Source: Actinomycetes bacterium (lineage in GTDB: Bacteria > Actinomycetota > CALGFH01). Taken from it: 64,000 nucleotides of DNA. Positions 8,564 to 38,226 of the stretch are shown here, piece after piece. The first letter of the stretch is position 1; every line of letters begins with the position of its first letter. The stretch lies in the NCBI GenBank assembly GCA_036000965.1, contig DASYUT010000288.1, positions 1-64,000 on the forward strand. Direction: 5' to 3'. Position numbers and translations under genes: made by a program. The notes under the pieces were generated by a model that was given only the letters and a program-made list of their open reading frames with translations, ran no database searches and was not told the DNA's origin.

Positions 8564-8575
8564 AAGGGAGATCTG

Positions 8576-9388: not shown

Positions 9389-9430
9389 GCGGTCGTTTTG
9401 CTCAACCTGACCTGGGTACGCAGCATGGCG

Positions 9431-9496: not shown

Positions 9497-9507
9497 GGAG
9501 GAACCTG

Positions 9508-10176: not shown

Positions 10177-10215
10177 CCTCCTCCGTCGGCCGGGCAGGCG
10201 TTCGGAGGGGAGCCA

Positions 10216-10446
10216 CTAGCCCCCGGGCTCGGACGTCCGGGCCCGGTAGACGCCGGTGCCCTCCTTGACCACGCGGCCCTCCTTGGCCAGGGCCGCGAGG
10301 CTCTTGACGACCGTGCCGCGGACGTTCCGGTCCGTGAACGGGTCGAGCAGGCGCGCCCTGAGCGCCCGGTCGAGCACGACCGTCCAGTGCAGCGCCTCTG
10401 GCTCGGCGTCGCGCAGCACGCGCAGGCAGGCTTCGGTCGGGTCCAT
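10216..10446 (-). CDS. Small hypothetical protein, possible winged helix
   Basis: 76 residues from ATG at 10446. The order is EACLRVLRDAEPEALHWTVV, then a VRGTVVKSLAALAKEGRVVK helix and wing. It ends VYRARTSEPGG. The pattern recalls a minimal winged helix-turn-helix. It is divergent from the metallophosphoesterase gene across 77 bp, so it might regulate it. I know no family by name. Confidence 0.65.
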   Translation of the reverse strand: MDPTEACLRVLRDAEPEALHWTVVLDRALRARLLDPFTDRNVRGTVVKSLAALAKEGRVVKEGTGVYRARTSEPGG

Positions 10447-10523
10447 GACCCGGCCAGGCTACCCGTGCGGAGCGGCCGGGCCAAGGTTCGTCGTCCGCCA
10501 ACCGCATCCGGCAGAATGCCCCC

Positions 10524-11951
10524 ATGATCCTGACGGTTGACCCCTGCCCACTCGACGTCGAGCTGCGTCTGCCCGCGGGCGGTCGCCTGGTCTTCGTGTC
10601 CGACCTGCACCTGACCGAGGGTGGCGTCACCAACGACTTCAACGCCACCAACGAGCTGTGCGAGCTGGTCGAGTCGCTGTACCGGCACCCCGGCGAGGTG
10701 ATCCTCGTGCTCGGAGGCGACGTCCTCGACCTGCTGCAGGTGCAGGCGCCGCGTGAGGAGCGGGCGGCCCGCGCCCTCTCCGGCCAGGACGCGGCCACAC
10801 TCGGGCGCACCTTGTGCCGGCTCGCCGGGCGGCCCGGCGCGACCATCGTCTACCTGGTCGGCAACCACGACTCCACCCTGGCCTGGGACCCGGTCGGGCG
10901 CGAGCTGGTCATGCGGCAGCTCGGCGTCTCCGTGGTCGCGCTGTACGCCCACGTCCGGGTCGAGGGCGAGGGCGGCGGCGAGGTCCAGGTCGTGGCCGAG
11001 CACGGTGACCAGCTCGACCGGTACAACCGGCGCACCGACCCGTTCGACCCGCTCGACGTGCCGCCTGGCGACCACATCGTCACCGAGGTGGTGAACCGGC
11101 TCGAGGCGGCCACCGAGCGCTACCCGGGGCTTGGCCTGGACCAGGTCGACAACGTCCGGCCCGCGCTGATGATCCCCTGGTGGATCGTTTCCAACTTCTT
11201 CTACCGCTACATGGGCCGGGCCGTGCGGAACTTCGCGGTGCCAGTCGTGCTGCTCTGGATCCTCGGGCACCTGCTGGTCGGGCTGCTCGTCGCCAGCGAG
11301 CTCGAGCGGGTCGCCTACCTCGGCGCCCGGGCCGTGCGCTGGACCGCCTCGGTGGTGCTCACCGACCTGCTCCTGCTCTTCCTGGTCTCGCCCGTGCTTG
11401 GCCGCATCTTCCGCCGGGCGGCGGTCGCCTACGGCGTCCCCTCCCCCCACGAGGCCGAGGAGGAGACCGCCACCCGCCGGGCCGGCGTGCCCGCGCTGCT
11501 CGACCGGCGCGACCCGGAGGCCAGCGTGCTGGTGACCGGCCACACCCACGAGCCTGGCCTGCTTCGCTTCCCGGACGGGCGGGTCGCGGTGGACGCCGGC
11601 TGCTGGGTCCGCGGGCTGGTGCCCGTGCCGGCCAGGTGCGGGCTCCCGCCGGTGTTCGTGCCCGCTTACCCGGTGAACTGGGTCGACGTCCAGGCGGTGC
11701 CCGGTGGGGTGGTGGTCGCCCTGTGGTCCCGCCGGCTGGCGGTGGAGCGGCGCCGGCTGGAGGTGCTCGAGTGGCTGGCTGCCAAGCGCCCCCTCCCGTC
11801 GGCCGAGGCCGAGCCGCCACGGGTCGTCGAGGAGGTGGTGGTCGCGCCCAGGCCGGCGGCGTCCCAGGCGGCGTCCCAGGCGGCGTCCCAAGCGGCGTCC
11901 CAGGCGGCGGACCCAGATTCGGACCCGTCGAGGACCCGGGCCGGCTCGTGA
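10524..11951 (+). CDS. Membrane-associated calcineurin-like metallophosphoesterase
   Basis: 475 residues. All metal-binding blocks are present: VSDLHLTEG (D-x-H) at about residue 28, LGGDVLDLL (GD), YLVGNHDS (GNHD) and VLVTGHTHEPG (GHxH) at about 335. Between GNHD and GHTH sit two hydrophobic segments, FAVPVVLLWILGHLLVGLLV and SVVLTDLLLLFLVSPVLG. These should anchor the enzyme in the membrane with the catalytic halves on the same side. The substrate may be a lipid or nucleotide phosphate but is unknown. The C-terminus is padded by four AASQ repeats. It overlaps the next methyltransferase by GTGA, so the two are translationally coupled. Confidence 0.85.
   Translation: MILTVDPCPLDVELRLPAGGRLVFVSDLHLTEGGVTNDFNATNELCELVESLYRHPGEVILVLGGDVLDLLQVQAPREERAARALSGQDAATLGRTLCRLAGRPGATIVYLVGNHDSTLAWDPVGRELVMRQLGVSVVALYAHVRVEGEGGGEVQVVAEHGDQLDRYNRRTDPFDPLDVPPGDHIVTEVVNRLEAATERYPGLGLDQVDNVRPALMIPWWIVSNFFYRYMGRAVRNFAVPVVLLWILGHLLVGLLVASELERVAYLGARAVRWTASVVLTDLLLLFLVSPVLGRIFRRAAVAYGVPSPHEAEEETATRRAGVPALLDRRDPEASVLVTGHTHEPGLLRFPDGRVAVDAGCWVRGLVPVPARCGLPPVFVPAYPVNWVDVQAVPGGVVVALWSRRLAVERRRLEVLEWLAAKRPLPSAEAEPPRVVEEVVVAPRPAASQAASQAASQAASQAADPDSDPSRTRAGS
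11855..11902 (+). repeat. 12-bp in-frame tandem repeat, four units
   Basis: ggcggcgtccca is repeated four times, with one base change in the last unit, adding AASQ units near the C-terminus of the phosphoesterase. Confidence 0.9.
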
Positions 11952-12763
11952 CCGAGCCGGTCGCCGAGGGGACCAGCGCGAGCGGGTCGGTCGCCTTCGA
12001 CCGGGCCGCCGGCTACTACGACGCCACCCGCGGCTTGCCCCCGGATGTCAGCGAGCAGGTCGCCGACCGCATGGAGGCGGTCGCCGGCCCGGACGCCCGG
12101 TTTCTGGAGATCGGCGTGGGCACCGGCCGGATCGCCCTCCCCCTGCACCGCCGCGGCCGCCGCGTCACCGGCGTCGACCTGTCGGTGCCGATGATGGCCG
12201 AGTACCGGCGCAAGGCGGCCGCGGCCGGGCTGGCCGCCCCGCCCCTGGTCCGGGCCGACGTCACCCGCCTCCCCTTCCGCGACGCGAGCGCCGACGTGGT
12301 GGTCGAGGTGCACGTCCTCCACCTGGTCCCCGCCTGGCGCGAGGCGCTGCCGGAGCTGCGCCGGGTGCTCGCGCCTGGCGGCCTGGTCCTGGTCGGCCGG
12401 GGCGGCGGCCACGGCGAGGACCCGAGGAGCCCCCGCGACCTCGTCAGCCGGCGGATGCGCGAGCTTGTCGGGGACCGGCCGCACGTGGGCGCCAGGGACG
12501 ACGAGGAGAAGCTCGAGGCGCTCGCCGCGGTCGGCGGCGCCGTCGAGCAGCTCGAGCCGGTGCGGTGGGACTGCGAGGAGACCTGGGCGGACGCGCTCGC
12601 CGAGATCGAGGGGCGGTGCTACTCCTACTCCTGGGGTGTGCCCGAGCCGGCTTGGGCGGCGGCCGCGCGCCGCCTCCGGGCCGAGGTCGAGGCCGAGCAC
12701 CCCGACCTGCACGCGCCAGTCGGAGTCCCCTCGGTGTTCCGGCTCGCCGCGGTCCGGTTCTGA
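11948..12763 (+). CDS. Class I SAM-dependent methyltransferase (UbiE/Methyltransf_11-like)
   Basis: 271 residues from GTG at 11948, whose first bases overlap the TGA of the phosphoesterase. Motif I is ARFLEIGVGTGRIALPLHRR at about residues 50-69. The acidic strand is VTGVDLSVPM, motif II reads ASADVVVEVHVLHLVPAW, and the post-motif is LAPGGLVLVGRG. The N-terminal AFDRAAGYYDATRGLP is typical of Methyltransf_11 enzymes acting on small molecules or quinones. Coupling to the phosphoesterase suggests a joint role, but the substrate cannot be named. Confidence 0.85.
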   Translation: MTEPVAEGTSASGSVAFDRAAGYYDATRGLPPDVSEQVADRMEAVAGPDARFLEIGVGTGRIALPLHRRGRRVTGVDLSVPMMAEYRRKAAAAGLAAPPLVRADVTRLPFRDASADVVVEVHVLHLVPAWREALPELRRVLAPGGLVLVGRGGGHGEDPRSPRDLVSRRMRELVGDRPHVGARDDEEKLEALAAVGGAVEQLEPVRWDCEETWADALAEIEGRCYSYSWGVPEPAWAAAARRLRAEVEAEHPDLHAPVGVPSVFRLAAVRF

Positions 12764-17876: not shown

Positions 17877-19040
17877 GTGCGAATTCTTCAGGTGCACACC
17901 CATTACCGGGAAACCGGCGGCGAGGACGTGGTCGTGCAGGCCGAGGCCGCACTGCTTCGCCGGGCTGGCCACGAGGTCCTGCAGCACCAGGTCGAGAATC
18001 CGCGGAGGGCGCTGGCGGCCACCGCCGCGCTGGCCGCCGCGCCCTGGAATCCCGCAGCCGCGCGCGACCTGCGGCGGACGGCCGAGCGGGTACGGCCGGA
18101 CGTCGTGCACGTCCACAACACCTGGTTTGCCCTGTCACCGGCAGTGCTGCCCGCGTTCGGTCGCGCTGGCGTGCCCGTGGTGATGACGCTGCACAACTAC
18201 CGGCTGCTCTGCGCCAACGGGCTGCTGTTCCGCGATGGACACCCGTGCGAGGACTGCGTGGGCAGCCACCCCTGGCACAGCGTGCGACATGGCTGCTACC
18301 GCGGGTCGGCGGCCCAGTCGATCCCGGTCGCGGCCACCATCGCGCTCCACCGCCGCCGCCACACCTGGGACAGGGACGTCGAGCTGTTCCTGGCCCTCAA
18401 CGAGTTCTCCCGGGCGCTCTTCGTCCGGGGCGGGCTCCCCCCCGACCGGATCCTGGTCAAGCCCAACTTCGTGTCCGACCCGGGGGTGCGAACGGTGCCG
18501 GCCGAGCGGTCCTCCACCGTGCTGGTGGTCGGCCGCCTGGTCGACCAGAAGGGCGTCCACTTGCTGCTCGAGGCCTGGCGGCGGTTCGCCAACCGGTCCC
18601 TCGAGCTCGTCGTCGTGGGCGACGGCCCGGCTCGGGCCGACCTGGAGCGCCTGGGTGTGCCCGGCGTGCGGTTCGCGGGACGGCTCACGCCGGAGCAGGT
18701 GCGCGAGCTCATGTTGGCCGGTCGGGCACTCGCCTTCCCGTCGCGCTCCTATGAGGGGCAGCCCATGGTGGTGCTGGAAGCCCTGGCCGCTGGGCTGCCA
18801 GTGCTCGCCTCCGACCTGGGTGGCCTGCCGGAACTGCTGCGGCCGACCGGTGCGGGCTGGCTCGCCCCGCCTGGGGACGCGGCCGGCTGGACCGGCGCGC
18901 TGCGCGGCCTGACCCAGACTGCGCCGGTCGTCCAGGCAAGCGCCGCGGCGCTTCGGCTCTACCAGCGGGTCTTCACCGAGGAGCGAGCCGCCCGAACGCT
19001 CGAGGACGCCTACGAGCGGGCACGAGCTCGCCAGCTGTAG
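17877..19040 (+). CDS. GT4-family glycosyltransferase, first gene of the polysaccharide locus
   Basis: 387 residues from GTG at 17877. The GT-B N-terminal domain starts RILQVHTHYRETGGEDVVVQ, then VHVHNTWFALSPAVLPAF and TLHNYRLLCANGLLFRDGHP. A Cys-rich stretch, CEDCVGSHPWHSVRHGC, is typical of this subfamily. The C-terminal nucleotide-sugar domain has VLVVGRLVDQKGVHLLLEAW, and its E-x7-E region is FPSRSYEGQPMVVLEALAAG. It transfers a sugar onto a lipid-linked glycan intermediate on the cytoplasmic face; which sugar is unknown. Its position beside wzz- and wzy-like genes supports exopolysaccharide assembly. The ribosome site is weak. Confidence 0.88.
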   Translation: MRILQVHTHYRETGGEDVVVQAEAALLRRAGHEVLQHQVENPRRALAATAALAAAPWNPAAARDLRRTAERVRPDVVHVHNTWFALSPAVLPAFGRAGVPVVMTLHNYRLLCANGLLFRDGHPCEDCVGSHPWHSVRHGCYRGSAAQSIPVAATIALHRRRHTWDRDVELFLALNEFSRALFVRGGLPPDRILVKPNFVSDPGVRTVPAERSSTVLVVGRLVDQKGVHLLLEAWRRFANRSLELVVVGDGPARADLERLGVPGVRFAGRLTPEQVRELMLAGRALAFPSRSYEGQPMVVLEALAAGLPVLASDLGGLPELLRPTGAGWLAPPGDAAGWTGALRGLTQTAPVVQASAAALRLYQRVFTEERAARTLEDAYERARARQL

Positions 19041-19437
19041 GGAAAACGAGCGGCTCCGCCGGCTGCATGCAGACGCGTCCTCCCGGGTTGGCGGTAGCGG
19101 ACTGCTGAACGGGATGGCCGCACGAATACGGCGAACCTGCCATGTCCTGGTGGCCGCGACCCGGCCATGACAGCACGAATTGCGACGATTTCGACTCGCT
19201 GGTCGGGACACCATCGCTCGCGGTTCGGCGGCTGTACGAGGCAAGGAGGTACGGGAACGTGGGGCAGGAGGGTACCATTTTGGTTGGACCGACGGCCTTG
19301 CTGCCGATCGGCGGAGAGGGGGGACTCGGCGATGACACCCAACCATGGACTGCGTCCGGGCGGCGCCGCCATATCATCCTCCAGTCAGGGCCGGGAGCCG
19401 GGCCGATGGCCGTAGCGGCGACGGAGGGAGTGCAGAC
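19041..19437. other. 397-bp leader upstream of the wzz-like gene, no convincing gene
   Basis: A 99-codon frame at 19142-19441 overlaps the next start and has no family-like content, so I do not call it. The region has lower GC patches (cacgaattgcgacgatttcg) and AAGGAGG- and GGAGG-like strings, and may hold the promoter of the wzz-wzy pair. No clear -10/-35 pair or riboswitch was recognised. Confidence 0.5.
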
Positions 19438-21111
19438 GTGAGCGTCTCGACGGCCTGGGACGAGGGCCCCAGCGTGCTTGCCTCCGTCTGGCGATACCGG
19501 TGGCTGCTGCCAGTGGCCGTCCTCTTGGGTGGGCTCGTCGGGTACAGGCTGGCCGCGCTGCAGCCAACGCTCTACGAGGGCGTGTCCCGCGTTTTCGTCG
19601 CCAACCCCGCGAACGCCGGTCAGGATGGATCCTCGACAGCCGTCGCTGCCGCCCGTAACGTCGCCAACCAGGCTGCGTTCATGTCGTCCACGCCGGTCCT
19701 GCAGCGGGCCGCCAGGCGCTACGGCAACGGGATCACCGTGGTCGAGCTGCGCAAATGGCTGACGGTGGAGGCCTCTGCCAACTCTGACGTCATCACCATC
19801 AGGGCGCTCGCTCCGACCCCGAGCGGCGCGGCGAAGCTCGCCGACACCGTCGCGCTCGCCTACAACGATGTGATCGCCGATAACGCCCGACGACGGGCGG
19901 CTGCCACCATCCGTGGGATCCAGGTGGACAGGGCTCGGCTGAGAGCGAGGCTGGACAGGCTCAAGGCCGCCCGCACCCTCAATCCCAGCGATCCGACGCT
20001 GGCCCTGGAGCTGGATGCGACCAACGAAGAGCTCGGGAAACTGATCAACCGGGAGCTTCAGGTCGATCAGGACGTGGACGAGTCTTCGGGGGCGATCGGG
20101 CTGCAGGAGAGCGCGACGGTGCCGGAGAAGCCGGCTCGACCGTCGCGCGCGCGGCTCGCTGCCGTGGGAGCGCTGCTGTTCCTGGCCGGTACCGTGGCGA
20201 TGGCCTGGTGGCGCACCTGGCGGCGACGTACGGTTCTGGCCGCGGCGGAGCCGGCGGCGGCCCACGCGGACCCGGCCATGCTCTCAGCGAACGGTACCCA
20301 GCCGACGGTCGCATCGAAGTCAGCGTCCAACGGCGGACGAGGAGGGGTCGGACGGTTCCGGTTCATACGTTCCGGTCTGACGTCGCCGAACCAGTCGATT
20401 CCAGCCGGGTCTACGAACCCCGCTGCGGACAGGCGGGCTACGGACGACCCGGGACTGGTCCCTGCGTCCACCGTCGGGCATGCCAACGGCGGCCGGTTTA
20501 GTGGACGACCCGCGCCGGATGGACGACCCGCGCCGGAGGTTGCGCAGGCCTCTGCCATGACCCTGACCCCGGAGTCGATCCTCGACTTCCAGCAGCTGGC
20601 CTCGTCCATCGAGCACATCGCCGACAGGATCGGGAAGTACCGGCTCGACCTGTACGACCAGCACCTGCCACAGCTTGAGGCCGAGGAGCTGGCCGACCGG
20701 TTCGATCTTGACCTCGGCGCCATTCTGCTCGACGACGGCGAGGGTCGGCTCAGGGTGGCGGGAGCAACCGGGTTGACCGAGGCGGAGCTCGAGTGTGCGA
20801 TCGACCGCGACGACGTTGCGGAGCTGATCGGGGCCCGTGGTCATGTGGTGCTTGGCGCCGAGCGGGCCCGCCTGCACGAGCTCGGGTGTCCAGGCGTCCA
20901 CGTTGGGACGCTCGTCATCGTGCCGGTGGGGCACGGGGCCCGCTACGGTGTGCTGCTCGCTGGTGTGGACCCCGACGCCGGGAGCGACCGCTCGGCACTG
21001 AACGACCAGGACGTCGAGGAGATCGCCGTGTTCACCCGCGTCATCACTCCCTCCCTGGGCGTCTGGGTGCTCCTGCGGCACCTGCGGCAGCAGCTTCAAG
21101 ACGTCGAGTAG
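19438..21111 (+). CDS. Wzz-type polysaccharide co-polymerase with C-terminal GAF-like domain
   Basis: 557 residues from GTG at 19438 (GGAGGGAG upstream). Residues about 17-40 (YRWLLPVAVLLGGLVGYRLA) are the first membrane helix. The periplasmic Wzz segment includes YEGVSRVFVANPANAG and a long coiled coil, RARLRARLDRLKAARTLNPS. The second helix, ARLAAVGALLFLAGTVAMAW, is at about 240-260, preceded by a PEKPARPSR proline motif. No Walker motifs follow, so it lacks the fused BY-kinase. A long disordered linker leads to residues about 400-557 (FDLDLGAILLDDGEGRLRVA, VLLAGVDPDAGSDRSALNDQ), which look GAF-like. Wzz sets chain length; the cytoplasmic GAF-like tail suggests ligand control. Confidence 0.75.
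   Translation: MSVSTAWDEGPSVLASVWRYRWLLPVAVLLGGLVGYRLAALQPTLYEGVSRVFVANPANAGQDGSSTAVAAARNVANQAAFMSSTPVLQRAARRYGNGITVVELRKWLTVEASANSDVITIRALAPTPSGAAKLADTVALAYNDVIADNARRRAAATIRGIQVDRARLRARLDRLKAARTLNPSDPTLALELDATNEELGKLINRELQVDQDVDESSGAIGLQESATVPEKPARPSRARLAAVGALLFLAGTVAMAWWRTWRRRTVLAAAEPAAAHADPAMLSANGTQPTVASKSASNGGRGGVGRFRFIRSGLTSPNQSIPAGSTNPAADRRATDDPGLVPASTVGHANGGRFSGRPAPDGRPAPEVAQASAMTLTPESILDFQQLASSIEHIADRIGKYRLDLYDQHLPQLEAEELADRFDLDLGAILLDDGEGRLRVAGATGLTEAELECAIDRDDVAELIGARGHVVLGAERARLHELGCPGVHVGTLVIVPVGHGARYGVLLAGVDPDAGSDRSALNDQDVEEIAVFTRVITPSLGVWVLLRHLRQQLQDVE
20503..20537 (+). repeat. 18-bp tandem repeat in the Wzz linker
   Basis: ggacgacccgcgccggat occurs at 20503-20520 and, apart from its last base, at 20521-20537. 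It duplicates six residues (GRPAPD) in the disordered linker. Confidence 0.88.
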
Positions 21112-21118: not shown

Positions 21119-22372
21119 ATGACAGCCGAGAGGGCGTCCTTGTCCGTCCACGACCAGACGAGCACCTTCCGCGCTTCGGCGGCCGCGCTCTTCCCCGCAC
21201 CAGGTCAACGAGCACGGCTTGTGGTGTACCTCGCGTTCGCTGTCGCGCTCCCCTTGACGTTCTTCGGCAACCAGGTCGGCGGGCTGCTCTTCAGCGGATG
21301 GGCCTGGCTGTTGGCACTGGCAATGATCGGACCATTGACCGTCGTCGATCCGTTGCACCCTAGGGCGGTCGTCGCACTCTGGCCCTATCTGGCCTTCCTC
21401 ATCTACGCCCTGACGAGCCTGGCATGGGCACCTGACCTGGCCAAGGGCGCCCTGACCCTGCTCCAGCTGCTGCTTCCCGCGCTCGCCTATCTCATGGCCT
21501 GGCAGGCGACCAGGGATGTGCGGGGAGTGGTAAACCCGCTCGTCAGGGTCTGCTTCGGCGTGCTCGGTTTCGTGATAACGCTCGTACTGGTGGATCGCAC
21601 GGTCGGGCTAGGACCTCTGGAGCTGTTGGCACGCCCCGTGGGGATCAGCCTCAGCATCGTGTTTACGATCGTGACGATGAACTCCCGGTCGTGGCTGCGC
21701 ACGATGCTGATCGGTTGCATCGCGGTTGCCGTCGCTGTCGCGGTCGGGTCGCGGATGGCCGCCGCCGTGCTGACGCTGCTGCTGCTGTGCAGCCCATCGC
21801 TGGCCCTGCGCGTGCACTGGCGGGTCCTGATCGCGGCACTCTTCTGCATCCTGCTGGTGGAGGCAAGCCATACCGAGGTCTTCAAGGCTCGCTTCTTCTT
21901 CGATCCCAACGCTTCCCTGCTCGACGTCCTCACCTTGAGCGACAAGGTCAATACCGCCGGTCGTCGGGAGTTGTGGCCGCAGCTGCTCCACGCCTGCTCG
22001 CAGAAGGCGACGTTCGGCTACGGCCTGGGGGCCTCGTACGGTCTCAGCACCCGCTTCAGCGGCGGCCCCCTGAGCCATCCGCACAACGACTACCTGCGTA
22101 CGTTGTGTGACGTCGGGCTCACCGGCAGCATCTTCTTCTGGGGCTTCTTCCTCGTCATGGGAGTGCGGTCGCTGGCCCGCGCGCTCAAGCCGACGCCCAA
22201 CCGACGACTCCACGCGGCCGCCAGCATGCTCGTGCTCGCCCTCCTGATCTTCGCGATCACGGACAACCCGATGGTCTACACCGCGCACTTCATGATCCCG
22301 CTGGCGCTCGTGCTCGGCCTGTCCGACGGTAGCTATGACCAGTGGCGCACCCGCACCCTCGTCAACGGGTGA
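21119..22372 (+). CDS. O-antigen polymerase/ligase-like membrane protein (Wzy/WaaL)
   Basis: 417 residues with about ten hydrophobic helices, for example LVVYLAFAVALPLTFFGNQV and LIGCIAVAVAVAVGSRMAAA. The hallmark large loop carries RRELWPQLLHACSQKATFGY then a GxGxG-like GYGLGASYG, and HPHNDYLRTLCDVGLTGSIF. HNxYL is the conserved Wzy_C/O-antigen ligase motif. It should polymerise or ligate undecaprenyl-linked oligosaccharide outside the membrane. It starts seven bases after the wzz-like stop, so the pair is cotranscribed. Confidence 0.88.
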   Translation: MTAERASLSVHDQTSTFRASAAALFPAPGQRARLVVYLAFAVALPLTFFGNQVGGLLFSGWAWLLALAMIGPLTVVDPLHPRAVVALWPYLAFLIYALTSLAWAPDLAKGALTLLQLLLPALAYLMAWQATRDVRGVVNPLVRVCFGVLGFVITLVLVDRTVGLGPLELLARPVGISLSIVFTIVTMNSRSWLRTMLIGCIAVAVAVAVGSRMAAAVLTLLLLCSPSLALRVHWRVLIAALFCILLVEASHTEVFKARFFFDPNASLLDVLTLSDKVNTAGRRELWPQLLHACSQKATFGYGLGASYGLSTRFSGGPLSHPHNDYLRTLCDVGLTGSIFFWGFFLVMGVRSLARALKPTPNRRLHAAASMLVLALLIFAITDNPMVYTAHFMIPLALVLGLSDGSYDQWRTRTLVNG

Positions 22373-22423: not shown

Positions 22424-23413
22424 TCACCGACCACTCGACCAGTCCAGCGCGTCGGCGTGCTGGACCGTGTGCTGCCAGAACGCGTGGTACCGGCTGGCGA
22501 CCGGCGATACGCCTCGTGCCAGCAGGCCGGTTACGTAGTTTGCCCAGCAGGCGACGAACAGCGGCGTCAGCAGCGGCCGCGCCAGCCGGGACCTGTCCGC
22601 GTAGTCCACGACCAGCGGTCGAGCCCAGGCTCCGGGGACGATGAAGGCGTTGTGGAAGGCCGCCACCTGATCCTTGAGTCGCCGGGCCCGAGCGGTTGCG
22701 GTGGCGAAGTACGCCAGGAAGAAGCAGAGGTCATGGGCTGGCAGCCCATGCCGCTCGGAGAGCTCCCAGTCGACGACCCCGACCCGACCGTCTTCGAGCC
22801 ACAGCAGGTTGGGGTCGCTCAGGTCACCATGCTGGACCACGAGCGGCAGCTCGCCATGCCGCAACGGCTCGGTCAGCTCCAGCGTGCGCTCCACGAGTGG
22901 TGACCCTCCCTCGAGGAGACCGCCGGCGGCGGCCTGCTGGAGCGGTCGTTCGAGCAGCGTCTCGTACCAGTCGGGTCTTCGACCGGATGCCGGGGCCCAG
23001 GGCAGCTCGAGGAGCCAACTGCTCACGGCTTCGAGGCACCTGGCCGGCTCCCTGCGGATCGCGTACTGGTCCATCGGCCGGCCAGCCAGAGCAGTCTCCA
23101 GCAGCATGGGCCGTCCAGCGACGAGCTCGAGGGCGACGACCCTGGGAACGCTGCCGACGCTGACCCCCACACGCTCGAGGTGCTGGAGGTTGGCCGCTTC
23201 CCGCTCGACGCCACCTCCGTCGCCACTGCGACGAGGCAGCTTGGCCACCAGGCAGGGAGCTCCCGTCCCAGACGCCAGGACCAGCACGACGACATGTCGT
23301 GAAGCCGAGAACCACGGTGTGAGCATGAGGCACGACGGTGTGCCATCCACACCGTGGCAGTCCAACCCGAGCCTGCTCGCGTTGGAGACCAGGAAGTTCT
23401 GGACGAGCCTCAA
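22424..23413 (-). CDS. Aminoglycoside-phosphotransferase-like (APH/choline kinase fold) kinase
   Basis: 329 residues. The proposed start is a TTG at 23413 whose bases overlap the TGA of the preceding gene (TTGA). The catalytic loop reads VVQHGDLSDPNLLWLEDG (HGD-x4-N) and the metal site is VGVVDWELSERHGLPAHDL. The N-lobe has LVAKLPRRSG (ATP lysine) and VEREAANLQHL (glutamate). These residues indicate an active small-molecule or sugar kinase. As the third gene of a coupled kinase/methyltransferase-like cassette inside an exopolysaccharide locus, it more likely phosphorylates a sugar or lipid carrier than an antibiotic. It ends convergent with the wzy-like gene. Confidence 0.8.
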   Translation of the reverse strand: MRLVQNFLVSNASRLGLDCHGVDGTPSCLMLTPWFSASRHVVVLVLASGTGAPCLVAKLPRRSGDGGGVEREAANLQHLERVGVSVGSVPRVVALELVAGRPMLLETALAGRPMDQYAIRREPARCLEAVSSWLLELPWAPASGRRPDWYETLLERPLQQAAAGGLLEGGSPLVERTLELTEPLRHGELPLVVQHGDLSDPNLLWLEDGRVGVVDWELSERHGLPAHDLCFFLAYFATATARARRLKDQVAAFHNAFIVPGAWARPLVVDYADRSRLARPLLTPLFVACWANYVTGLLARGVSPVASRYHAFWQHTVQHADALDWSSGR

Positions 23414-24021
23414 CCGGTGCCCCCGCTGCGGCCGGCTGGCCGGTGGGCGATGATGCTGACCGCCGGCGCGAATGTCGCCAGCAGATGAACCCGGAGCAGG
23501 AGCCTGCCGAGCATCTCGAGCAGGCGGATCCACACGCCTCCGCGATGCCGTTCCAGCGCCCGCCGCACGACGGTCGGGTCATCGAGCGGCACGATCCACT
23601 TCGACATGGCGAAACTTGGCCAGTGCCAGTGCAACGCCACGTTGTCGAACCCGTGCAGGCGGAGCGTGGCCCGGTGCGCCCGGGCCCGGCGCAGCCGCCC
23701 ACCGATGCGCCCGCGTACCGAGAAGGCCCCTTGCAGCTCGAGGTAGAGCCAGCCGCCGGGACGCAGGAGCGGTATGAGCCCGACCAGCTCGGCCCGGGTC
23801 GGCGCAGCCAGCACGATGACGTCGCACGTCGCCTCGGCCGACGTCGTCCCGGCTCGGTCGACGGTGCGCACGGGGCCAGCCGCGGCATCGAGCGCCTGCA
23901 GCAACGCCGCATCGAGTCTGCCGGCACACCCCACTCGACCCAGCTCAGGACTGGGGAGCAGGAAGCGCCAGTCCAGCCGGCGGGCGGCGTCCAGCGAAAG
24001 GTGTCGGTCCACGGTCTTCAC
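23410..24021 (-). CDS. Methyltransferase-like Rossmann protein lacking motif I
   Basis: 203 residues from GTG at 24021, overlapping the previous stop as GTGA. The segments LDAALLQALDAAAG, ATCDVIVLAAPTRAELVGLI and PLLRPGGWLYLELQGAFS correspond to the second half of a class I methyltransferase fold. The glycine-rich motif I (GxGxG) is missing; only LGRVGCAGRL occupies that place. The C-terminal half, FDNVALHWHWPSFAMSKWIV and GVWIRLLEMLGRLLLRVHLL, is cassette-specific as far as I know. It may bind SAM weakly or be a non-catalytic partner of the flanking kinases. Both start and stop overlap its neighbours. Confidence 0.7.
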   Translation of the reverse strand: MKTVDRHLSLDAARRLDWRFLLPSPELGRVGCAGRLDAALLQALDAAAGPVRTVDRAGTTSAEATCDVIVLAAPTRAELVGLIPLLRPGGWLYLELQGAFSVRGRIGGRLRRARAHRATLRLHGFDNVALHWHWPSFAMSKWIVPLDDPTVVRRALERHRGGVWIRLLEMLGRLLLRVHLLATFAPAVSIIAHRPAGRSGGTG

Positions 24022-25310
24022 CGCCGGGGAGCCTGGCCCCGGGCTCCCCGCGGGGAGTAGCAGTCCCAGACTATCGCCGTCACCGTCCGGCGCACCTGTT
24101 CGGGATCCCTGCTTGCATCCACGACATGCCATCCTGCGAACTGGCGGGCCAGATCGAGGTACTGACGACGGCGCTCAGCCAACCACGCGAGCGTGTGCTC
24201 GCTCTTCCGCTGGGCGGCGACCTCGGCCGGCACGTCCAGCAGCACCACGACGTCCACGGCCGGAAGGGCATGGCGCAGCACCCAGTGGCTGGTCCTGGTC
24301 CGGAGACTGGCATGGCCGGGAGGAGGGAGCAGCACGTCGAGCACGTACCGGTCCAGGACCACGAGCCGCCCTCGGGTCTTGTGGTAGGCGACGGCGGCCG
24401 ACCGGCTCCACAACCGCAGCAGGCGCAGCGTCAGCCCCAACCCGGGCACGTGCTGGGAGGCCCCGAAGCTGCTCGCCGGGTAGGGACCCATGTACAGGGA
24501 GCGGGTGGGGACGGGGAACGAGTCCCGCAGCCCCTTGGCCAGCGTGGATTTGCCGGCCCCGTCCAGTCCGAGGAGGGTGACGCTGATGCCAGGACGGCCT
24601 CCGGTCGTCGTCCCGCGGTGACGGCGGGCGCGTCGAAGCAGGATGCTGCTCGACGCCGCGACGAGATGTCGCCGCAGCCAGCGCGCTCGGAGCTGGCGGC
24701 CCAGCGTCGCGAGGACGGGCCATTCCGCCCTTCGGACATGACCGAGGATCCGGGCTGGGCTCCAGCCGGACGGCAGGTACGGCGCGATCACCCCGGCGAT
24801 CGGCCCACCACCGTCGGCCTCGACGACGAGCTCGAGCAGCCGCTCCGCGTCCTGCGGCGGTACGCTCCGGCGGTCGAGCAGACGGTGGAGCAGGAGGTAC
24901 CAGAACGCGTCGTCGGGAGCGAGCAGGTAGACCGCTCCGACCCGCCGGCGCCGGGTCAGGCAGCCTGCGGCCGCTACCGTCGGGAGGCTCTGGGACGGGA
25001 AGGACAGTTCGGAGACGAGGCTCAGCATGGACCAACTGTCCTCGCGCGGCTCGTATGCCAGGAAGTGCCGCGCCCGGTCACGTCCGGTGGGCATGGCGGC
25101 GTAGCCCAGGGACGAGAGCGCGGAGCGGGCGCGGCGCAGATGTGGAGGGGACACGAGCAGCGCCATGGCATGCTCGGATTGGCACGGGTCCCGCTCCCCA
25201 CCGAGGAGGCACCAATCCACCGCTGCGTCGTCGAGGGCGCGCAACGCCGCCTCGGCCAGCGGACCGGGGCGCGACGCGGTCGCGAAGCTCTTTGCATGGC
25301 TGTCGGACAT
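24018..25310 (-). CDS. Fusion of a degenerate nucleotidyltransferase-like domain and a thymidylate-kinase-like P-loop kinase
   Basis: 430 residues from ATG at 25310. Residues about 15-150 (ALRALDDAAVDWCLLGGERD, YLLAPDDAFWYLLLHRLLDR) resemble the nucleotidyltransferase-like regions fused to sugar kinases. No canonical GS-x10-D-x-D is visible. Residues about 240-425 are a P-loop kinase: Walker A VTLLGLDGAGKSTLAKGL, a LVVLDRYVLDVLL DRY motif and a VVVLLDVPAEVAAQRKSEH lid. This is the thymidylate-kinase fold, but the nucleotide-specific residues differ, so dTMP is not assumed. It is the first gene of a three-gene cassette joined by GTGA and TTGA overlaps, divergent from a glycosyltransferase. Confidence 0.78.
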   Translation of the reverse strand: MSDSHAKSFATASRPGPLAEAALRALDDAAVDWCLLGGERDPCQSEHAMALLVSPPHLRRARSALSSLGYAAMPTGRDRARHFLAYEPREDSWSMLSLVSELSFPSQSLPTVAAAGCLTRRRRVGAVYLLAPDDAFWYLLLHRLLDRRSVPPQDAERLLELVVEADGGGPIAGVIAPYLPSGWSPARILGHVRRAEWPVLATLGRQLRARWLRRHLVAASSSILLRRARRHRGTTTGGRPGISVTLLGLDGAGKSTLAKGLRDSFPVPTRSLYMGPYPASSFGASQHVPGLGLTLRLLRLWSRSAAVAYHKTRGRLVVLDRYVLDVLLPPPGHASLRTRTSHWVLRHALPAVDVVVLLDVPAEVAAQRKSEHTLAWLAERRRQYLDLARQFAGWHVVDASRDPEQVRRTVTAIVWDCYSPRGARGQAPRR

Positions 25311-25461
25311 ATCCTAGACTGCACCCTACCATGCGGCGCGGCGCAGGTTCGTCCCTAGGTTCGTCCCATGGTGATCGGGGGGGTCGTAACCTCTCTACTG
25401 GTCCGGACCGGTCCAACGGCAATTAGCTGCAGCTCTCTTTTCCAGGCGAGAGGGTATATTG
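25311..25461. promoter_or_regulatory. Divergent promoter region between the kinase cassette and a glycosyltransferase
   Basis: 151 bp separate the two outward-facing genes. It contains an 11-bp direct repeat aggttcgtccc (25345-25355 and 25357-25367) and a nested palindrome ggtccggaccggtcc at about 25401-25415, either of which could bind a regulator. No confident -10/-35 boxes were assigned. A GAGAGG precedes the ATG at 25462. Confidence 0.5.
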
Positions 25462-26670
25462 ATGCGTGTTCTGTTGTGTGCGCTCGAAGCGCCTCTTCCC
25501 CCGCTCAACAACGGGCAGCGGCTCGTGGTCGGAGCCTTGCTGCGGCACTTGCGCGAGCGGCACGACGTGCGTGTCCTCGCCTACCGCGCCTCCGATCAAG
25601 TTGTCGAACGCGACGGGACGCCGATGCGGTTGTTGTCGCACCCCGTTCCCACCTCACCATTCCCTCGACGCCTCAGCCGGGCTGCCGCGTTCGCCTCTGG
25701 CATGCTGCACGACCGTCCGCAGCGAGTGGACGCCCTTTCGGAACGGTTGCGCCGGCCCCTCCAGGAAGAGCTGGAACGGTTCCAGCCCGACGTCGTCCAC
25801 GTCTGCTGGGGGATGCTCGCCCCATTGGGGCGGGATCTCGCCGGCCGGGCGACCGTCCTCGGTCTCCTGAACGCCTGGCATCTCGACATGGAGGCACAGG
25901 CGGAGGCTGCCACCGGTCTCTACCGGCGTCTCTACCATGGCGTGGTCCAACGCGTCCGCCGCTTCGAAGCCACCGAGTACCGCTCGTTCGGTCGTGTCGT
26001 CGTCGTCACGCAGGAGGATTGTGACGCAATTGTTGCCCTGGATCCAAAGGTTCGGGCGGCGGTCATCCCAAACGGGGTCGACATTGAGTTCTACGGCGCG
26101 GCGGTCCCGACCGTTCGTGACCCCGATCGGATCGTGTTCCACGGCGTGATGGATTATCCGCCGAATATCAATGCCGCGGAGTTCCTGGCCAGGCAGGTGA
26201 TGCCCCGGGTCCGCGCCATCCGCCCGCAGGCGAAGCTCGCCCTCGTCGGTCGGGCGCCAACCGCCAGGATCCGGGCTCTGGCGCGTCAACCCGGCGTCGA
26301 GGTCACGGGAGAGGTGCCGGATCTCCGGCCTTGGCTGCAAGGCAGCAGGGTTGGCATCTGCCCGATGCTGATCGGGACGGGCATCAAGAACAAGCTGCTC
26401 GAGGCGATGGCAAGCGGCCTCCCCTGCGTCGCCACGACGCTGTCGGTCCGGGGCCTGCAGGCCGCCGACGGGCGGGAGCTGTTCGTCGCCGACGACGCGG
26501 AAGCGCTCGCGGCCCACCTCGTGCGCCTGCTCGACGACGATGCCCTGGCCGCCTCGATCGGAGCCGCCGGCCGGGCCTACGTCCGCGCGCACCATGGCTG
26601 GGACCGTGCCGTGCAGAGTTACGAAGCGGTGTACCAGGAAGTACGGGCGGCTACACCAGCTTCCACCTGA
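25462..26670 (+). CDS. GT4-family glycosyltransferase
   Basis: 402 residues from ATG at 25462; a TTG one codon upstream is less likely. The N-terminal GT-B domain reads VLLCALEAPLPPLNNGQRLV and VVHVCWGMLAPLGRDLAG. The linker has AAVIPNGVDIEFYG. The C-terminal domain has RIVFHGVMDYPPNINAAEFL, PWLQGSRVGICPMLIGTGIK and KLLEAMASGLPCVATTLSVR. FHGxMDYxPNxxA is typical of the TIGR03087-like PEP-CTERM/exopolysaccharide glycosyltransferases I recall. It is the only plus-strand gene in a minus-strand stretch, and its 3' end overlaps the next gene by 20 bp tail to tail. Confidence 0.87.
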   Translation: MRVLLCALEAPLPPLNNGQRLVVGALLRHLRERHDVRVLAYRASDQVVERDGTPMRLLSHPVPTSPFPRRLSRAAAFASGMLHDRPQRVDALSERLRRPLQEELERFQPDVVHVCWGMLAPLGRDLAGRATVLGLLNAWHLDMEAQAEAATGLYRRLYHGVVQRVRRFEATEYRSFGRVVVVTQEDCDAIVALDPKVRAAVIPNGVDIEFYGAAVPTVRDPDRIVFHGVMDYPPNINAAEFLARQVMPRVRAIRPQAKLALVGRAPTARIRALARQPGVEVTGEVPDLRPWLQGSRVGICPMLIGTGIKNKLLEAMASGLPCVATTLSVRGLQAADGRELFVADDAEALAAHLVRLLDDDALAASIGAAGRAYVRAHHGWDRAVQSYEAVYQEVRAATPAST

Positions 26671-27718
26671 ATCGCCCGATGCGGCTCTTGACGTACGGGT
26701 AGGCGAAGCTGGCCGCGGACAGCGCGGTCCGCGCGACCACCCCTCGGGTGAGCGCGATGGTCTCCACCCCGGCGTCCTCGTCCGCGAACCTGTACTTGTA
26801 GGCGTCACGGCCGTGCAGGAACCGGTACTCGGCCACGCCGTCCTCGAACGCCTGGCGGATGGAGTGAACCAGGAGGACGAACCCGACCGATCGGTGATCC
26901 CAGACCGGATCCCGACCAGCCTGGTAGTAGCACTCCGCGTCAGCGAACCGCAGACCGTACCAAGCCGCCACCGTCTGGCCGTCGAGGTCGAGCAGCCACA
27001 GTCGGAGCCACCCCCGGTCCAGCGCGGTCGCGGCGAACGCCCGGTGGAAGGCCGCCCGGGGGATGAAGCCCGAGCTGCCATTCGACCACCGGAGGCTGTG
27101 AAGATGGAACAGCGTGTCGAGGGCGGCCGGGAGCGCCTCCGGGTCCTGGACGAGCCGGAACGCCACGTCATGATGGCGCGCCAGGTTCCGCTCCCGGCGC
27201 CCCACCTGCTGGCGGAAGTTCGAACTTCTCCGGGCGAGGAAAGCGCTCCAGCCGCCATCCGGATTACGGAGCAGCGGGCTGCCGTCCCGTGCGAGGATCT
27301 TCCCGCCCAGCGCGGCGGTCCACGACGCGTTCCCGGGAAGGTTGTCGGCGACGAAGATCTCCCATCGCATCCGTGCCAGGGCCTGCTGCGTGGCTCGGGC
27401 CACCGAGGGGAGGTCTTCGGGAGCATGGATGGGTCCGAGCTGGTCGCCGGCTCCGTGGCCGATGAAGCGCAGGATGCGCAGTGGACCCGACGACCATCGG
27501 TAGAACGGGAGGATGCCGACGAGGGTACCGTCACCCGCGCGGCAGGTCGTGACCAGTGGGCGATGGCCGCCACCGAAATGACGCCACCAGGTCGAAGCCC
27601 ATTCATAGGTGGCGAAGACGTTGCGGCTCCGTAGGGCCAGTGGCGTCCACTCGTCTTGCAGGGTCTCGAGCTCCTCCACCTCGAGCCGGACAGGAGCCGG
27701 GGACGCTTCCGGCCTCAT
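26651..27718 (-). CDS. FemAB/BioF2-like GNAT-fold transferase
   Basis: 355 residues from ATG at 27718, overlapping the deacetylase stop (ATGA). The acyltransferase signature is FATYEWASTWWRHFGGG near the N-terminus, then LRILRFIGHGAGDQLGPIHA and SNFRQQVGRRERNLARHHDV. The end carries LLDLDGQTVAAWYGLRFADA and YRFLHGRDAYKYRFADED. This is the BioF2/CelD (Acetyltransf_6) pattern found in capsule and cellulose loci, where it probably adds acyl or aminoacyl groups to the glycan. It is the last gene of a four-gene coupled operon. Confidence 0.84.
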   Translation of the reverse strand: MRPEASPAPVRLEVEELETLQDEWTPLALRSRNVFATYEWASTWWRHFGGGHRPLVTTCRAGDGTLVGILPFYRWSSGPLRILRFIGHGAGDQLGPIHAPEDLPSVARATQQALARMRWEIFVADNLPGNASWTAALGGKILARDGSPLLRNPDGGWSAFLARRSSNFRQQVGRRERNLARHHDVAFRLVQDPEALPAALDTLFHLHSLRWSNGSSGFIPRAAFHRAFAATALDRGWLRLWLLDLDGQTVAAWYGLRFADAECYYQAGRDPVWDHRSVGFVLLVHSIRQAFEDGVAEYRFLHGRDAYKYRFADEDAGVETIALTRGVVARTALSAASFAYPYVKSRIGRFRWKLV

Positions 27719-28656
27719 CCCAGGGTCTCCACCAGCCGTTGTCGCGTGACCCGGACCAGCTTCCCGGTGACACGACGCACGGCCGCCTGCCAGACCCTCT
27801 CGTCGGGAGCAAGCACCACACGACGGCCCTCATGAGCCGGCGTGGAGCTGTTGTTCAACCCTGGGCGCACCGTGAGGGAATGCGTATACCCGGCACGCTC
27901 GGCGGCCAGCAGCGTGCCGGCATCGTAGTCGCCTCGGGCTCCGTTCGGGTAGGCCAGTAACCGCACGCGGACATCGAGCTCGCGCTCCAGCAGTTGCCTG
28001 GACGCCGCCAGGTCCTCCACCTGGCGATCGACCTCCTCCCGGCTCAAGATCGAGTGGTACATCGAGTGTGAGCCCACCGAGAAGCCTCGCCGCACGAGCT
28101 CCCGGGCCCCTGCCCAATCAAGGAAGAGGCGGTCGGAATCGAACGTTCCCTCGGGTGCGAGCAGCTCGCAGAGCTCGGCCACCATCCGGTCGCGGTCGGC
28201 GCGGTCGAGCTGCTTCAACCGCTCGGCGACCAACCGGCGGGAGCGACGTCCGGGCTCGGCGCCGGTGCGCAGCGCCATTCCGCTCCACTCCACCACTGTG
28301 CGGCTGCTGCGGGCGAACGCCCATCCTAGAACCTCCCACCACGGCCGTACCTCCTGGGACAGGATGCCTGGGACCAGGAAGAACGTCGCCGGGAGGCCGA
28401 GACGCTCTAGGAGCGGGACGCCGAGGTCGAGGTTGTCCCGGTAGCCGTCGTCGAAGGTGAGCGCGACCGCGCGAGGCGGTAATGGCCGTCCTGCATGCAG
28501 GTCATCCAGGCTGGAGTCGAGCGGCACCACGTTGGCGACGCGGTGGAGCCATCGAAGCTGGCGCGCGAACCCGCGCGAGCCCGCGCCCGGCTGGCAGGGG
28601 TACTCCCATGTCCTGTCGACGGCGTGCCAGGCGAGTACGAGCAGCCGGTCAGCCAT
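27715..28656 (-). CDS. Polysaccharide deacetylase (NodB homology)
   Basis: 313 residues from ATG at 28656. The NodB motifs are ALTFDDGYRDNLDLGVPLLE (metal-binding TFDDG, about residue 66), VGSHSMYHSILSREEVDRQV (HSxxH) and LLAYPNGARGDYD (motif 3 region). No signal peptide is obvious, so it probably acts at the cytoplasmic face or by an atypical route. It should remove N- or O-acetyl groups from the exopolysaccharide. It overlaps genes on both sides, by 8 bp and 4 bp, in the cupin - FemAB - deacetylase - FemAB operon. Confidence 0.88.
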   Translation of the reverse strand: MADRLLVLAWHAVDRTWEYPCQPGAGSRGFARQLRWLHRVANVVPLDSSLDDLHAGRPLPPRAVALTFDDGYRDNLDLGVPLLERLGLPATFFLVPGILSQEVRPWWEVLGWAFARSSRTVVEWSGMALRTGAEPGRRSRRLVAERLKQLDRADRDRMVAELCELLAPEGTFDSDRLFLDWAGARELVRRGFSVGSHSMYHSILSREEVDRQVEDLAASRQLLERELDVRVRLLAYPNGARGDYDAGTLLAAERAGYTHSLTVRPGLNNSSTPAHEGRRVVLAPDERVWQAAVRRVTGKLVRVTRQRLVETLG

Positions 28657-36165: not shown

Positions 36166-38226
36166 CTACGGACGGCCGGGTTGCTGGAAGGACGCACGTC
36201 GCACCCCTGATGGCTCGTGTGATGGTTGGTGAGGCCGGGCAGGGTCGAGCTGCACGACGGTGAGCAGGGGCCGGCCGTGGCCGCTGCGCCCGGCGCCGAG
36301 CAGCGTCACGGTCGGCACGCGGACGTCGAACGCCGGCGAGTACCAGCCGGCGGGCGGGTCGGTCCGCCCTTCGAGACGCTCCCAGGCCAGTGCTTCCGGG
36401 AGTGCGACGGTGGCGGTCCCTTCCTCGTCCCCGGCAGGCCAGGCCAGCTCGGCGAGGCTGCCGCGCAGCGTGCAGGCGACGCCGGGGCCGAGGTGGAGTG
36501 CGAGGCGGCAGTCGTGCTCGCCCAGGGTGTCGAGCCGGTCTTCGATCACCAGGCGGCGCTCCTCGCGGAGCAGACGGATCGTGCGACGGTGCACGGCGGC
36601 CGGGCGGAGCCGGTCGTAGCCGTGGTGGGCGGCCCGCACCTCGGCGACCGGGCCGCCGTCGAGCCCCTGGGCGTGCTCCAGCTCGCTGCGCGCGTGGCGG
36701 GTCCACAGGAACGGGCCGCCCGAGACCGACTGGTCGGCCTGGCCGACCTCGAGGGTGTTGTGGCCGGCGGTGGAGCGGAAGTACGCGCGCCACCCTGGCT
36801 CGCCGTGGTAGCAGTAGGTCCCGGGGTCGGCCAGGACCTCCGCCCCGCCGACCCGCAGCTCCACCGCGAGCGCGTCGGCGTGGGCGTGGGCCGCGATGCC
36901 GAGGTACCCGTGCGGGCCGTGGTCGACCCGGCACCAGATCTCCTCGAGCCCGTGCCCGTCACGCAGCAGCGTCGTGCCCGCGTCGGGGAACAGCGACGGC
37001 CGCCGCCCCGGGCGGGGGCCGCCCACGGGCAGGGGTGCCCGCGCCAGGCCGGTCCACAGGGGCGTGCGCGCGTCCTCCCGCGGCACGGGCGGCCACCAGT
37101 CCAGCGGGCCGAACAGGACCGCCCCGGTCGCCAGCAGGGACGCCCAGCGCTGGAAGCCGGGCGCGTCGAGCAGCAGGCCCCATCCCTCGTCGTCGTCGCC
37201 CTGGCGGGGCGGGCGCAGGCGCACGTCCACCACCGCGGCGAGCGCGTCGACCATGCGCCGCAGGGCGTCCCAGACCTCGCCGCCGAGCGGGTGCCCGGCC
37301 GTCTCGCCTTCGAGCGCGGCGGCCAGGCCCAGCTCGAGCACGAACCCGTGGTAGGCGGTTGCCAGCTCCCGGTTGAGGCCGTCGGGGAAGGTCTGGCGGG
37401 GCAGCTCCCGGCGCAGTGTGGCCGCCGCGTGCTCGCGCCAGCCGGGCGACTCCGGGAACCAGGGGAAGGCGCAGGCCGCCGCGAACTGCCCGGCCGCCTC
37501 GGCGAGCACGTGGTTGTTGGCCGACGAGCCGCGGCTCGGCAGCGTGGCCAGGTACTGCTGGTGGTGGTGGAGCTGGCGCAGGAAGGCCGGGTCGCCCTCG
37601 AACAGCGGGGCGGCACCGTCCCACCCGTCGAGCAGCCGCCTGGCCCAGGTCCAGGAGACGAGCCGCACCCCGACCTCGATCGCGCTCGTCCAGTGGATGC
37701 CGGAGAGGAACGGGTTGGCCGCCCACCAGGAGCGGAGCTGCCTGGCGGCCGCCCGGGCGTAGCGTTCGTCGCCCGTCAGCCTGAAGGCGGCAGCGAGCAG
37801 CGTGACGTGCTGGTGGCGGGACGGCTCCCACACGTACTTGACGTTGCCGGCCGCTGCCTCGTCGCGGTGGTCGACGTCGAAGCAGTAGGCGTCGCTCGGC
37901 GCCCGCCGGCCGGTGCGCGGGTCGGCGAACCAGTCCGCCTCGGCAGCGTCCCAGACCCGGTCGAAGACCGGCCAGCGGCCGGCGAGCAGCTGGCCGGCCG
38001 CCTCGACCACGCGGACTCGCGCGCCCGCGGGCACACCCTCGGCCGCCGCAGGGACCAGCGGGGTGGCGAACGGCGGGACCGCCCCAGGCACGGGCAGCGG
38101 GTCGGCCTGGCCCTGGCGCACCTGGCGCCGGCGCCAGCGCCGCTTCACCAGCTCGTCGCGTGCGCGCCCGACGATCTCCCCGGGCGACATGCGTGCCAGC
38201 CGCCGCGCGTACCACACGGGGTTCAT
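36166..38226 (-). CDS. Heparinase II/III-like polysaccharide lyase
   Basis: 686 residues from ATG at 38226, overlapping the previous stop (ATGA). The N-terminal alpha/alpha toroid includes WYARRLARMSPGEIVGRARD, WEPSRHQHVTLLAAAFRLTG, WTSAIEVGVRLVSWTWARRL and SRGSSANNHVLAEAAGQFAA. NNH is the conserved active-site asparagine/histidine region. The C-terminal Hepar_II_III beta domain has GYLGIAAHAHADALAVELRV followed by ADPGTYCYHGEPGWRAYFRS and GHNTLEVGQADQS. No signal peptide is seen, which is usual for this subgroup in EPS operons. It probably cleaves uronic-acid-containing polymer during assembly or turnover. Confidence 0.88.
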   Translation of the reverse strand: MNPVWYARRLARMSPGEIVGRARDELVKRRWRRRQVRQGQADPLPVPGAVPPFATPLVPAAAEGVPAGARVRVVEAAGQLLAGRWPVFDRVWDAAEADWFADPRTGRRAPSDAYCFDVDHRDEAAAGNVKYVWEPSRHQHVTLLAAAFRLTGDERYARAAARQLRSWWAANPFLSGIHWTSAIEVGVRLVSWTWARRLLDGWDGAAPLFEGDPAFLRQLHHHQQYLATLPSRGSSANNHVLAEAAGQFAAACAFPWFPESPGWREHAAATLRRELPRQTFPDGLNRELATAYHGFVLELGLAAALEGETAGHPLGGEVWDALRRMVDALAAVVDVRLRPPRQGDDDEGWGLLLDAPGFQRWASLLATGAVLFGPLDWWPPVPREDARTPLWTGLARAPLPVGGPRPGRRPSLFPDAGTTLLRDGHGLEEIWCRVDHGPHGYLGIAAHAHADALAVELRVGGAEVLADPGTYCYHGEPGWRAYFRSTAGHNTLEVGQADQSVSGGPFLWTRHARSELEHAQGLDGGPVAEVRAAHHGYDRLRPAAVHRRTIRLLREERRLVIEDRLDTLGEHDCRLALHLGPGVACTLRGSLAELAWPAGDEEGTATVALPEALAWERLEGRTDPPAGWYSPAFDVRVPTVTLLGAGRSGHGRPLLTVVQLDPARPHQPSHEPSGVRRASFQQPGRP

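Follow-up and report, generated by a model that had tools for sequence, protein, structure and literature searches.

Three chained genes within a glycan locus

The window, i.e. the stretch of 64,000 nucleotides analysed here, carries three minus-strand genes, P0001, P0002 and P0003, which belong to the families that we call NT-TMK, MT2 and APH2, respectively (Table 1). A preliminary description of the sequence had reported them as chained by GTGA and TTGA junctions, and both the coordinates and the four-nucleotide overlaps were as it gave them. In addition to the tabulated neighbours, FemAB-like GNATs, a UDP-glucose dehydrogenase and a heparinase are encoded around the trio. The stp1-type glycosyltransferase that diverges from P0001 is a recurrent companion, since cluster maps of other genomes place its family next to NT-TMK or APH2.

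Table 1 Features of the trio and of its glycan surroundings in the window.
Feature	Positions	Strand	Details
P0001 (NT-TMK)	24018-25310	minus	430 aa, ATG start; nucleotidyltransferase (NT)-like N-terminus and thymidylate-kinase-like P-loop kinase
P0002 (MT2)	23410-24021	minus	203 aa, GTG start; class I methyltransferase-like, without SAM motif I
P0003 (APH2)	22424-23413	minus	329 aa, TTG start; APH-family kinase, catalytic residues kept
GTGA overlap, P0001 stop / P0002 start	24018-24021	minus	4 nt, context GGTGAAG
TTGA overlap, P0002 stop / P0003 start	23410-23413	minus	4 nt, context GGTTGAGG
stp1-type family 4 glycosyltransferase, divergent neighbour of the trio	25459-26670	plus	TIGR03087, 208 bits, below cut-off
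Polysaccharide deacetylase	27715-28656	minus	Pfam Polysacc_deac_1, 73.7 bits
Wzy-type polymerase / O-antigen ligase	21119-22372	plus	Pfam Wzy_C, 35.6 bits
Wzz-like chain-length protein (weak)	19345-21111, start possibly 19438	plus	TIGR03007, 21 bits, far below cut-off
Family 4 glycosyltransferase	17877-19040	plus	Pfam Glyco_trans_1_4, 111.7 bits
Initiating polyprenyl-phosphate sugar transferase, same glycan region	42422-43972	minus	Pfam Bac_transf, 211 bits

Relatives of the trio lie with a Wzx/Wzy set composed of a flippase, a polymerase, glycosyltransferases and an initiating sugar transferase, and the window holds the same set minus the flippase. The trio itself is not beside Wzx, since the flippase of the window genome lies on another contig (C332), where it follows a second NT-TMK gene whose product is ~50% identical to P0001.

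P0001 is a thymidylate-kinase-like protein distinct from ordinary dTMP kinase

The C-terminal part of P0001 matched Pfam Thymidylate_kin (PF02223) with 34.1 bits (cut-off 27), while its N-terminus reached 16.3 bits against NTP_transf_5 (PF14907), below the cut-off of 31.2. Its kinase motifs are intact, with the P-loop GLDGAGKST and a DRY conforming to the dTMP-kinase patterns GxDGxGKS/T and DR[YHF]. Foldseek comparison of the AlphaFold2 model (pLDDT 86.8; like the other predicted structures used here, it rests on few sequences) retrieved the thymidylate kinase 2pbr as best match (E 1.5e-7, TM 0.66 by target), and the best thymidylate kinases aligned over the C-terminal half with TM 0.66-0.70 by target. 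P0001 thus shares fold, P-loop and DR[YHF] with thymidylate kinases (PF02223, TIGR00041), but differs from them in its additional NT-like domain, in its score against the TIGR00041 dTMP-kinase equivalog model (28.4 bits, below the cut-off of 83.25) and in the region that follows DRY. In thymidylate kinase, AYQ after DRY is the thymine-pocket motif; the Aquifex enzyme reads DRFVLSTIAYQ at this place, whereas the NT-TMK family reads DRYxYDALLPP, with DALLPP in place of AYQ. An ordinary dTMP kinase, against which the preliminary description had wished P0001 to be checked, is ruled out by the TIGR00041 score together with the AYQ replacement.

An active-site comparison of 32 relatives showed that the family acidic motif x-[DE]-x-[DE]-hLV is replaced by HAMALLV in P0001 and KLD by MLS, so that the earlier label of a degenerate nucleotidyltransferase-like domain fits this protein. 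P0001 is unlike most of its relatives in this loss of acidic residues: where it has HAMALLV and MLSLV, its paralogue on C332 keeps GDVDLLV and KLDIV. The two copies pair in the tree (SH-aLRT 99), and the acidic residues of P0001 were thus lost after the copies had parted. The P-loop and DR[YHF] are retained by all aligned NT-TMK proteins, with the exception of the P-loops of first tandem copies at two loci (L034 and L037), in which a copy devoid of P-loop is followed by an intact one and by an APH kinase; partly inactivated members therefore recur in the system.

P0002 belongs to a family that has lost the SAM-binding motif

P0002 had no match in Pfam or NCBIfam. Its AlphaFold2 model (pLDDT 81.5, pTM 0.79) displays a class I methyltransferase-like order of strands and helices, and methyltransferases headed the Foldseek matches (best E 9.4e-6, probability 1.00), with TM 0.4-0.5 making the likeness a remote one; RebM is one of the matches. 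A weak Foldseek match to the pseudo-methyltransferase of human fatty-acid synthase (8eyi, 6nna; TM 0.38-0.39) may rest on the adjacent ketoreductase domain. This human domain is a methyltransferase fold retained without activity, in a pathway unrelated to that of the trio.

Alignments A3 and A6 (17 rows) defined a signature of the MT2 family, formed by RRLDWRFLLPdP near the N-terminus, an LYxE strand and HWHWPdF. The glycine-rich SAM motif I is absent from P0002 and from all 17 aligned rows, and one invariant glycine stands at its site. A methyltransferase that decayed in this genome alone is ruled out by this absence across aligned relatives, and MT2 is thus a pseudo-methyltransferase conserved as such, not a gene in decay. 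The preliminary description had noted a methyltransferase core lacking motif I and had raised the idea of a non-catalytic partner; the core and its missing motif were confirmed, and the idea gains strength from a loss that characterizes the whole family. Argued from motif loss alone, the best reading is that MT2 would be such a partner.

The same trait was found in a second protein, an MT-APH fusion (no. 1) encoded in the larger cluster described below. Its methyltransferase domain is homologous to that of MT2 (hhalign probability 98.8, E 9e-17), and motif I is also missing from the N-terminal half of every aligned member. Two paralogous pseudo-methyltransferase forms are thus partners of APH kinases.

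P0003 keeps the APH catalytic residues and its gene is coupled to MT2

P0003 scored 76.3 bits against Pfam APH (PF01636; cut-off 23.2), and the catalytic residues with which it had been credited (Lys58, Glu72, His195/Asp197, Asn202 and Asp215 in P0003 numbering) turned out to be invariant in the APH2 family. It is far from every resistance or sugar kinase subfamily of NCBIfam; an aminoglycoside resistance kinase is ruled out by the curated cut-off for APH(3') (30.9 bits against 205), and a mobile cassette was rejected in view of the lack of any plasmid match for P0003. When the APH2 profile was compared with solved structures, matches were weak, the best being aminoglycoside and macrolide kinases, with none to hexosamine kinase. 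We infer that both APH2 and NT-TMK are active kinases.

While APH2 shares its fold and all catalytic residues with the APH family (PF01636), it differs from other members in its regular association with MT2: APH2 was the next gene, or the C-terminal half of a fusion, for all strong MT2 matches. The MT2-APH2 junction is ATGA in four loci (L070, L074, L078, L129) and TGATG in two (L132, L139), and both parts form a single fused gene in six others (L053, with a product of 582 aa, L063, L067, L086, L137, L140). Since MT2 and APH2 overlap, abut or are fused in other phyla too, the overlap between P0002 and P0003 goes beyond chance.

The trio is a subset of a larger cluster conserved across phyla

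When named genomes were scanned with alignment A1 and a P-loop pattern, the latter favouring intact kinases, 40 NT-TMK loci were obtained, from which family profiles were then built; an earlier contig scan with P0001 alone as query had given no match, and the searches at family, order and class level covered three genomes. The loci revealed a cluster of ~10 genes, up to five of which encode kinase-type proteins, in the recurrent order NT-TMK, Wzx, MT-APH fusion no. 1, HprK-like protein, MT2, APH2, stp1-type glycosyltransferase, short TMK, ATP-grasp and deacetylase. P0002 and P0003 correspond to the MT2 and APH2 of this cluster (alignments A3 and A4). It was found whole or in large part in seven loci and is fullest in L053 (Chloroflexi GWC2_73_18), L063 (Acidimicrobiales) and L067, in all of which the deacetylase is the last gene; in three Anaerolineae (L070, L074, L078) it is split into two divergent operons, and in L083 (KSB1) its order is rearranged. 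The hosts are Chloroflexota, Actinomycetota, KSB1-group bacteria and some others, and parts of the cluster are present in the strains Amnibacterium sp. CER49 (MT2-APH2 and HprK) and Catellatospora bangladeshensis (NT-TMK with an APH neighbour). Wzx lies in the same locus for most uncut NT-TMK loci, usually adjoining the MT-APH fusion, and the HprK-like protein is present in most full clusters. A probably secreted protein bearing KPxSKLWW also recurs near NT-TMK cluster loci.

Of these families, NT-TMK, MT2, APH2, the stp1 glycosyltransferase and a deacetylase are retained in the window. In the 358-contig draft of the window genome, HprK was not found (in a search run without a positive control), nor was a separate MT-APH fusion no. 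1, for which the query matched P0003 only; the system of the window may thus act more narrowly.

Matches to MT2 of at least 97 bits were obtained by whole-genome search in 19 of 30 NT-TMK genomes (the lowest of the 19 scoring 110 bits with the profile of that search and 97 bits with an earlier one), and in 10 of 21 once the genomes that had supplied seed sequences were left out. Among other sampled Chloroflexota, MT2 was detected in 5/399 genomes at E < 1e-9 and in 12/399 at E 0.001, and the corresponding Fisher p-values for NT-TMK carriers against Chloroflexota (2e-11 and 4e-9, respectively) are indicative rather than exact, since the carriers come from several phyla and are related by descent. 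In 396 other Actinomycetota genomes there was one clear match (G197), and G267 gave 29 bits over 42 positions; at E 0.001, 53 genomes of this phylum were retrieved including that of the window, the rest mainly through short matches to the common methyltransferase LRPGG stretch. P0001 itself had matches at E 0.001 or better in 24/397 sampled Actinomycetota genomes, more than half of them in the kinase domain only. Conversely, a search for NT-TMK in five MT2-positive Chloroflexota genomes had a mixed outcome, with a strong match in one (G464) and a moderate match in another (G617), while none of 18 controls exceeded 41 bits. Two loci (L202, L203) hold MT-APH pairs without a full NT-TMK, so that such pairs often, but not always, go together with NT-TMK.

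The co-occurrence of the three families that the preliminary description had proposed to look for is therefore present in other genomes, and the glycan setting that it described is strongly supported by the conserved flippase, glycosyltransferase, polymerase and deacetylase neighbours. Its dedicated kinase trio stands in part: the kinases are likely to form a system linked to glycans, but it is the larger cluster that is the natural unit. Pfam names alone would imply a chance grouping of housekeeping and resistance genes, i.e. a dTMP kinase and an aminoglycoside phosphotransferase. With scores far under the curated dTMP kinase and APH(3') cut-offs, a neighbourhood conserved across phyla and a P0003 devoid of plasmid matches, we give this explanation next to no credence. 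An anti-phage defence system was also ruled out, as PADLOC models gave weak P-loop matches only.

A putative role in glycan phosphorylation

The existence of the cluster is well supported. As to its function, we tentatively propose, as a reading that may well hold although we stop short of favouring it outright, that the trio represents a pared-down version of a kinase-rich cluster for Wzx/Wzy-type glycan assembly, which would phosphorylate a lipid-linked glycan with MT2 as pseudo-methyltransferase partner. MT2 and APH2 would act as one unit, in which an active APH-type kinase works on an acceptor held or positioned by MT2, as suggested by their being held together by overlap or fusion. P0001 would be a second kinase, of the TMK type, whose NT domain is here without catalytic residues. 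On the cytoplasmic side, these ATP-dependent kinases would add phosphate to particular hydroxyls of the undecaprenyl-linked repeat oligosaccharide, or of its end, before Wzx flips it, giving rise to a phosphate-bearing exopolysaccharide; the usual adjacency of flippase and MT-APH fusion points to phosphorylation at this stage.

The coupling of a methyltransferase fold to a glycan kinase, and hence the glycan-kinase model, has a precedent in WbdD of Escherichia coli O9a, a kinase and methyltransferase that ends the O-antigen chain and whose nearest structures include RebM (PMC3482155). Like MT2-APH2, it has the methyltransferase-fold domain first and the kinase second, and acts in glycan assembly. 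This order and fold class, together with the appearance of RebM both near WbdD and among the P0002 matches, would suit a scenario in which MT2 remains catalytic through an unusual way of using its cofactor, and the MT-APH protein phosphorylates and then methylates the glycan end, thus capping the chain. WbdD differs, however, in its active SAM-binding domain, eukaryotic-type kinase, coiled coil and dependence on an ABC-transporter pathway, whereas the trio combines an APH-type kinase with a Wzx/Wzy setting and gave no sequence match to WbdD. Motif I being eroded in every aligned MT2 and first MT-APH fusion, we regard capping as quite improbable.

The presence of an NT-like domain in the same operon, and of anomeric sugar kinases among APH-fold enzymes, raises the alternative of sugar salvage, in which APH2 would phosphorylate sugars at the anomeric position and the nucleotide sugar for the glycosyltransferases of the locus would be made by NT-TMK or a partner. 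The AmgK-MurU pair, a sugar kinase and a nucleotide-sugar maker, is a precedent for such salvage. Yet the acidic triad of the P0001 NT domain is gone although the operon is kept, the weak structure matches of APH2 are headed by aminoglycoside and macrolide kinases and include no hexosamine kinase, and salvage would leave both the presence of five kinase-type proteins in one cluster and the conserved pseudo-methyltransferase unexplained; we consider it rather unlikely.

Alternatively, the kinases could target a protein or peptide, such as a partner that is secreted or a regulator of the cluster, in the way that HPr and lasso peptide precursors are phosphorylated by HprK-type kinases, and the nucleotidyltransferase would attach a sugar to this phosphate. 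The kinase PsmK and the nucleotidyltransferase PsmN, which produce the phosphorylated and hexosylated lasso peptide pseudomycoidin (PMC9266682), provide a precedent, and the cluster resembles both this pair and the uncharacterised nucleotidyltransferase NTP_transf_5 in having an NT-like domain alongside kinases, including the HprK-like protein of most full clusters; the KPxSKLWW protein would be a candidate secreted partner. P0001 differs from these systems in its sub-cut-off domain, its TMK fusion, the loss of its acidic triad and its location in a glycan locus rather than a lasso peptide one. No precursor peptide, PqqD-like or cyclase genes were seen in the packed L053 cluster, the HprK search of the window genome (run without a positive control) was negative, and the APH2 and TMK folds are mostly those of small-molecule kinases, so that a protein target appears improbable.

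A candidate phosphoglycan pathway

The component folds of the cluster are already known, but its arrangement and its pseudo-methyltransferase family are unnamed in the libraries searched, in which neither MT2 nor the gene set falls under a curated family; nor was a published account of the cluster found in the open-access literature. Beyond the glycan-phosphorylation reading of the trio, we put forward, as a possible though more doubtful generalization, a phosphoglycan pathway of Chloroflexota, Actinomycetota and KSB1-group bacteria in which dead methyltransferases would bind the acceptor for APH-type kinases, and several kinases of different folds would write a phosphate pattern on a lipid-linked glycan before export. 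RRLDWRFLLP and HWHWPdF can be used as signatures for genome screening. MT2 would neatly exemplify a methyltransferase fold that persists in several phyla although its cofactor site is gone, and the conserved order and pairing suggest that the glycans of large uncultured bacterial groups may bear a phosphate pattern laid down by dedicated kinases.

Variants and neighbours of the NT-TMK cluster

The window genome carries a second copy of NT-TMK (nucleotidyltransferase-like domain fused to a thymidylate-kinase-like domain) with both nucleotidyltransferase residues and kinase intact, directly followed by a Wzx-type flippase. In the tandems of two other loci, L034 and L037, the first NT-TMK has lost its P-loop (PALKGV and PAAKAA, respectively), the second is intact and an APH kinase gene follows; the two genes are likely a pseudo-kinase and kinase pair.

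A recurrent sub-module found away from the full cluster consists of a short gene of TMK-like or NT-TMK-like type with an ATP-grasp gene close to or adjoining it (L039, L041, L045, L048, L050, L051); at L039 and L041 HprK is present as well. L202, L203 and L204 each hold glycosyltransferases and two differing MT-APH fusions (methyltransferase-like plus APH-type kinase). Of these three loci, L204 alone carries NT-TMK, which lies immediately before one of the fusions; the window shows the same placement.

The long open frame of the window probably spans two genes, one for heparinase II/III at 36166-38226 and, upstream of it and read in a different frame, a second at 38223-40457.

Large proteins close to NT-TMK or short-TMK loci share a KPxSKLWW stretch, within a part that had no Pfam match and is followed in some by PKD, Ig-like or CBM96 domains; these proteins may serve the glycan as a secreted partner.

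Coordinates of features, by locus
Locus	Feature	Positions
L005 (G000:C332, window genome)	Second NT-TMK	10457-12025
L005	Wzx-type flippase	8892-10505
L034	Tandem NT-TMK genes	8200-11400
L037	Tandem NT-TMK genes	5714-8611
Window	Single open frame, 1433 codons	36166-40467
L005	Large KPxSKLWW protein	6671-8824
L036	Large KPxSKLWW protein	10081-12276
L053 (Chloroflexi GWC2_73_18)	Large KPxSKLWW protein	3624-7871
L042, L043, L046, L059, L061, L077, L084, L086	Large KPxSKLWW proteins
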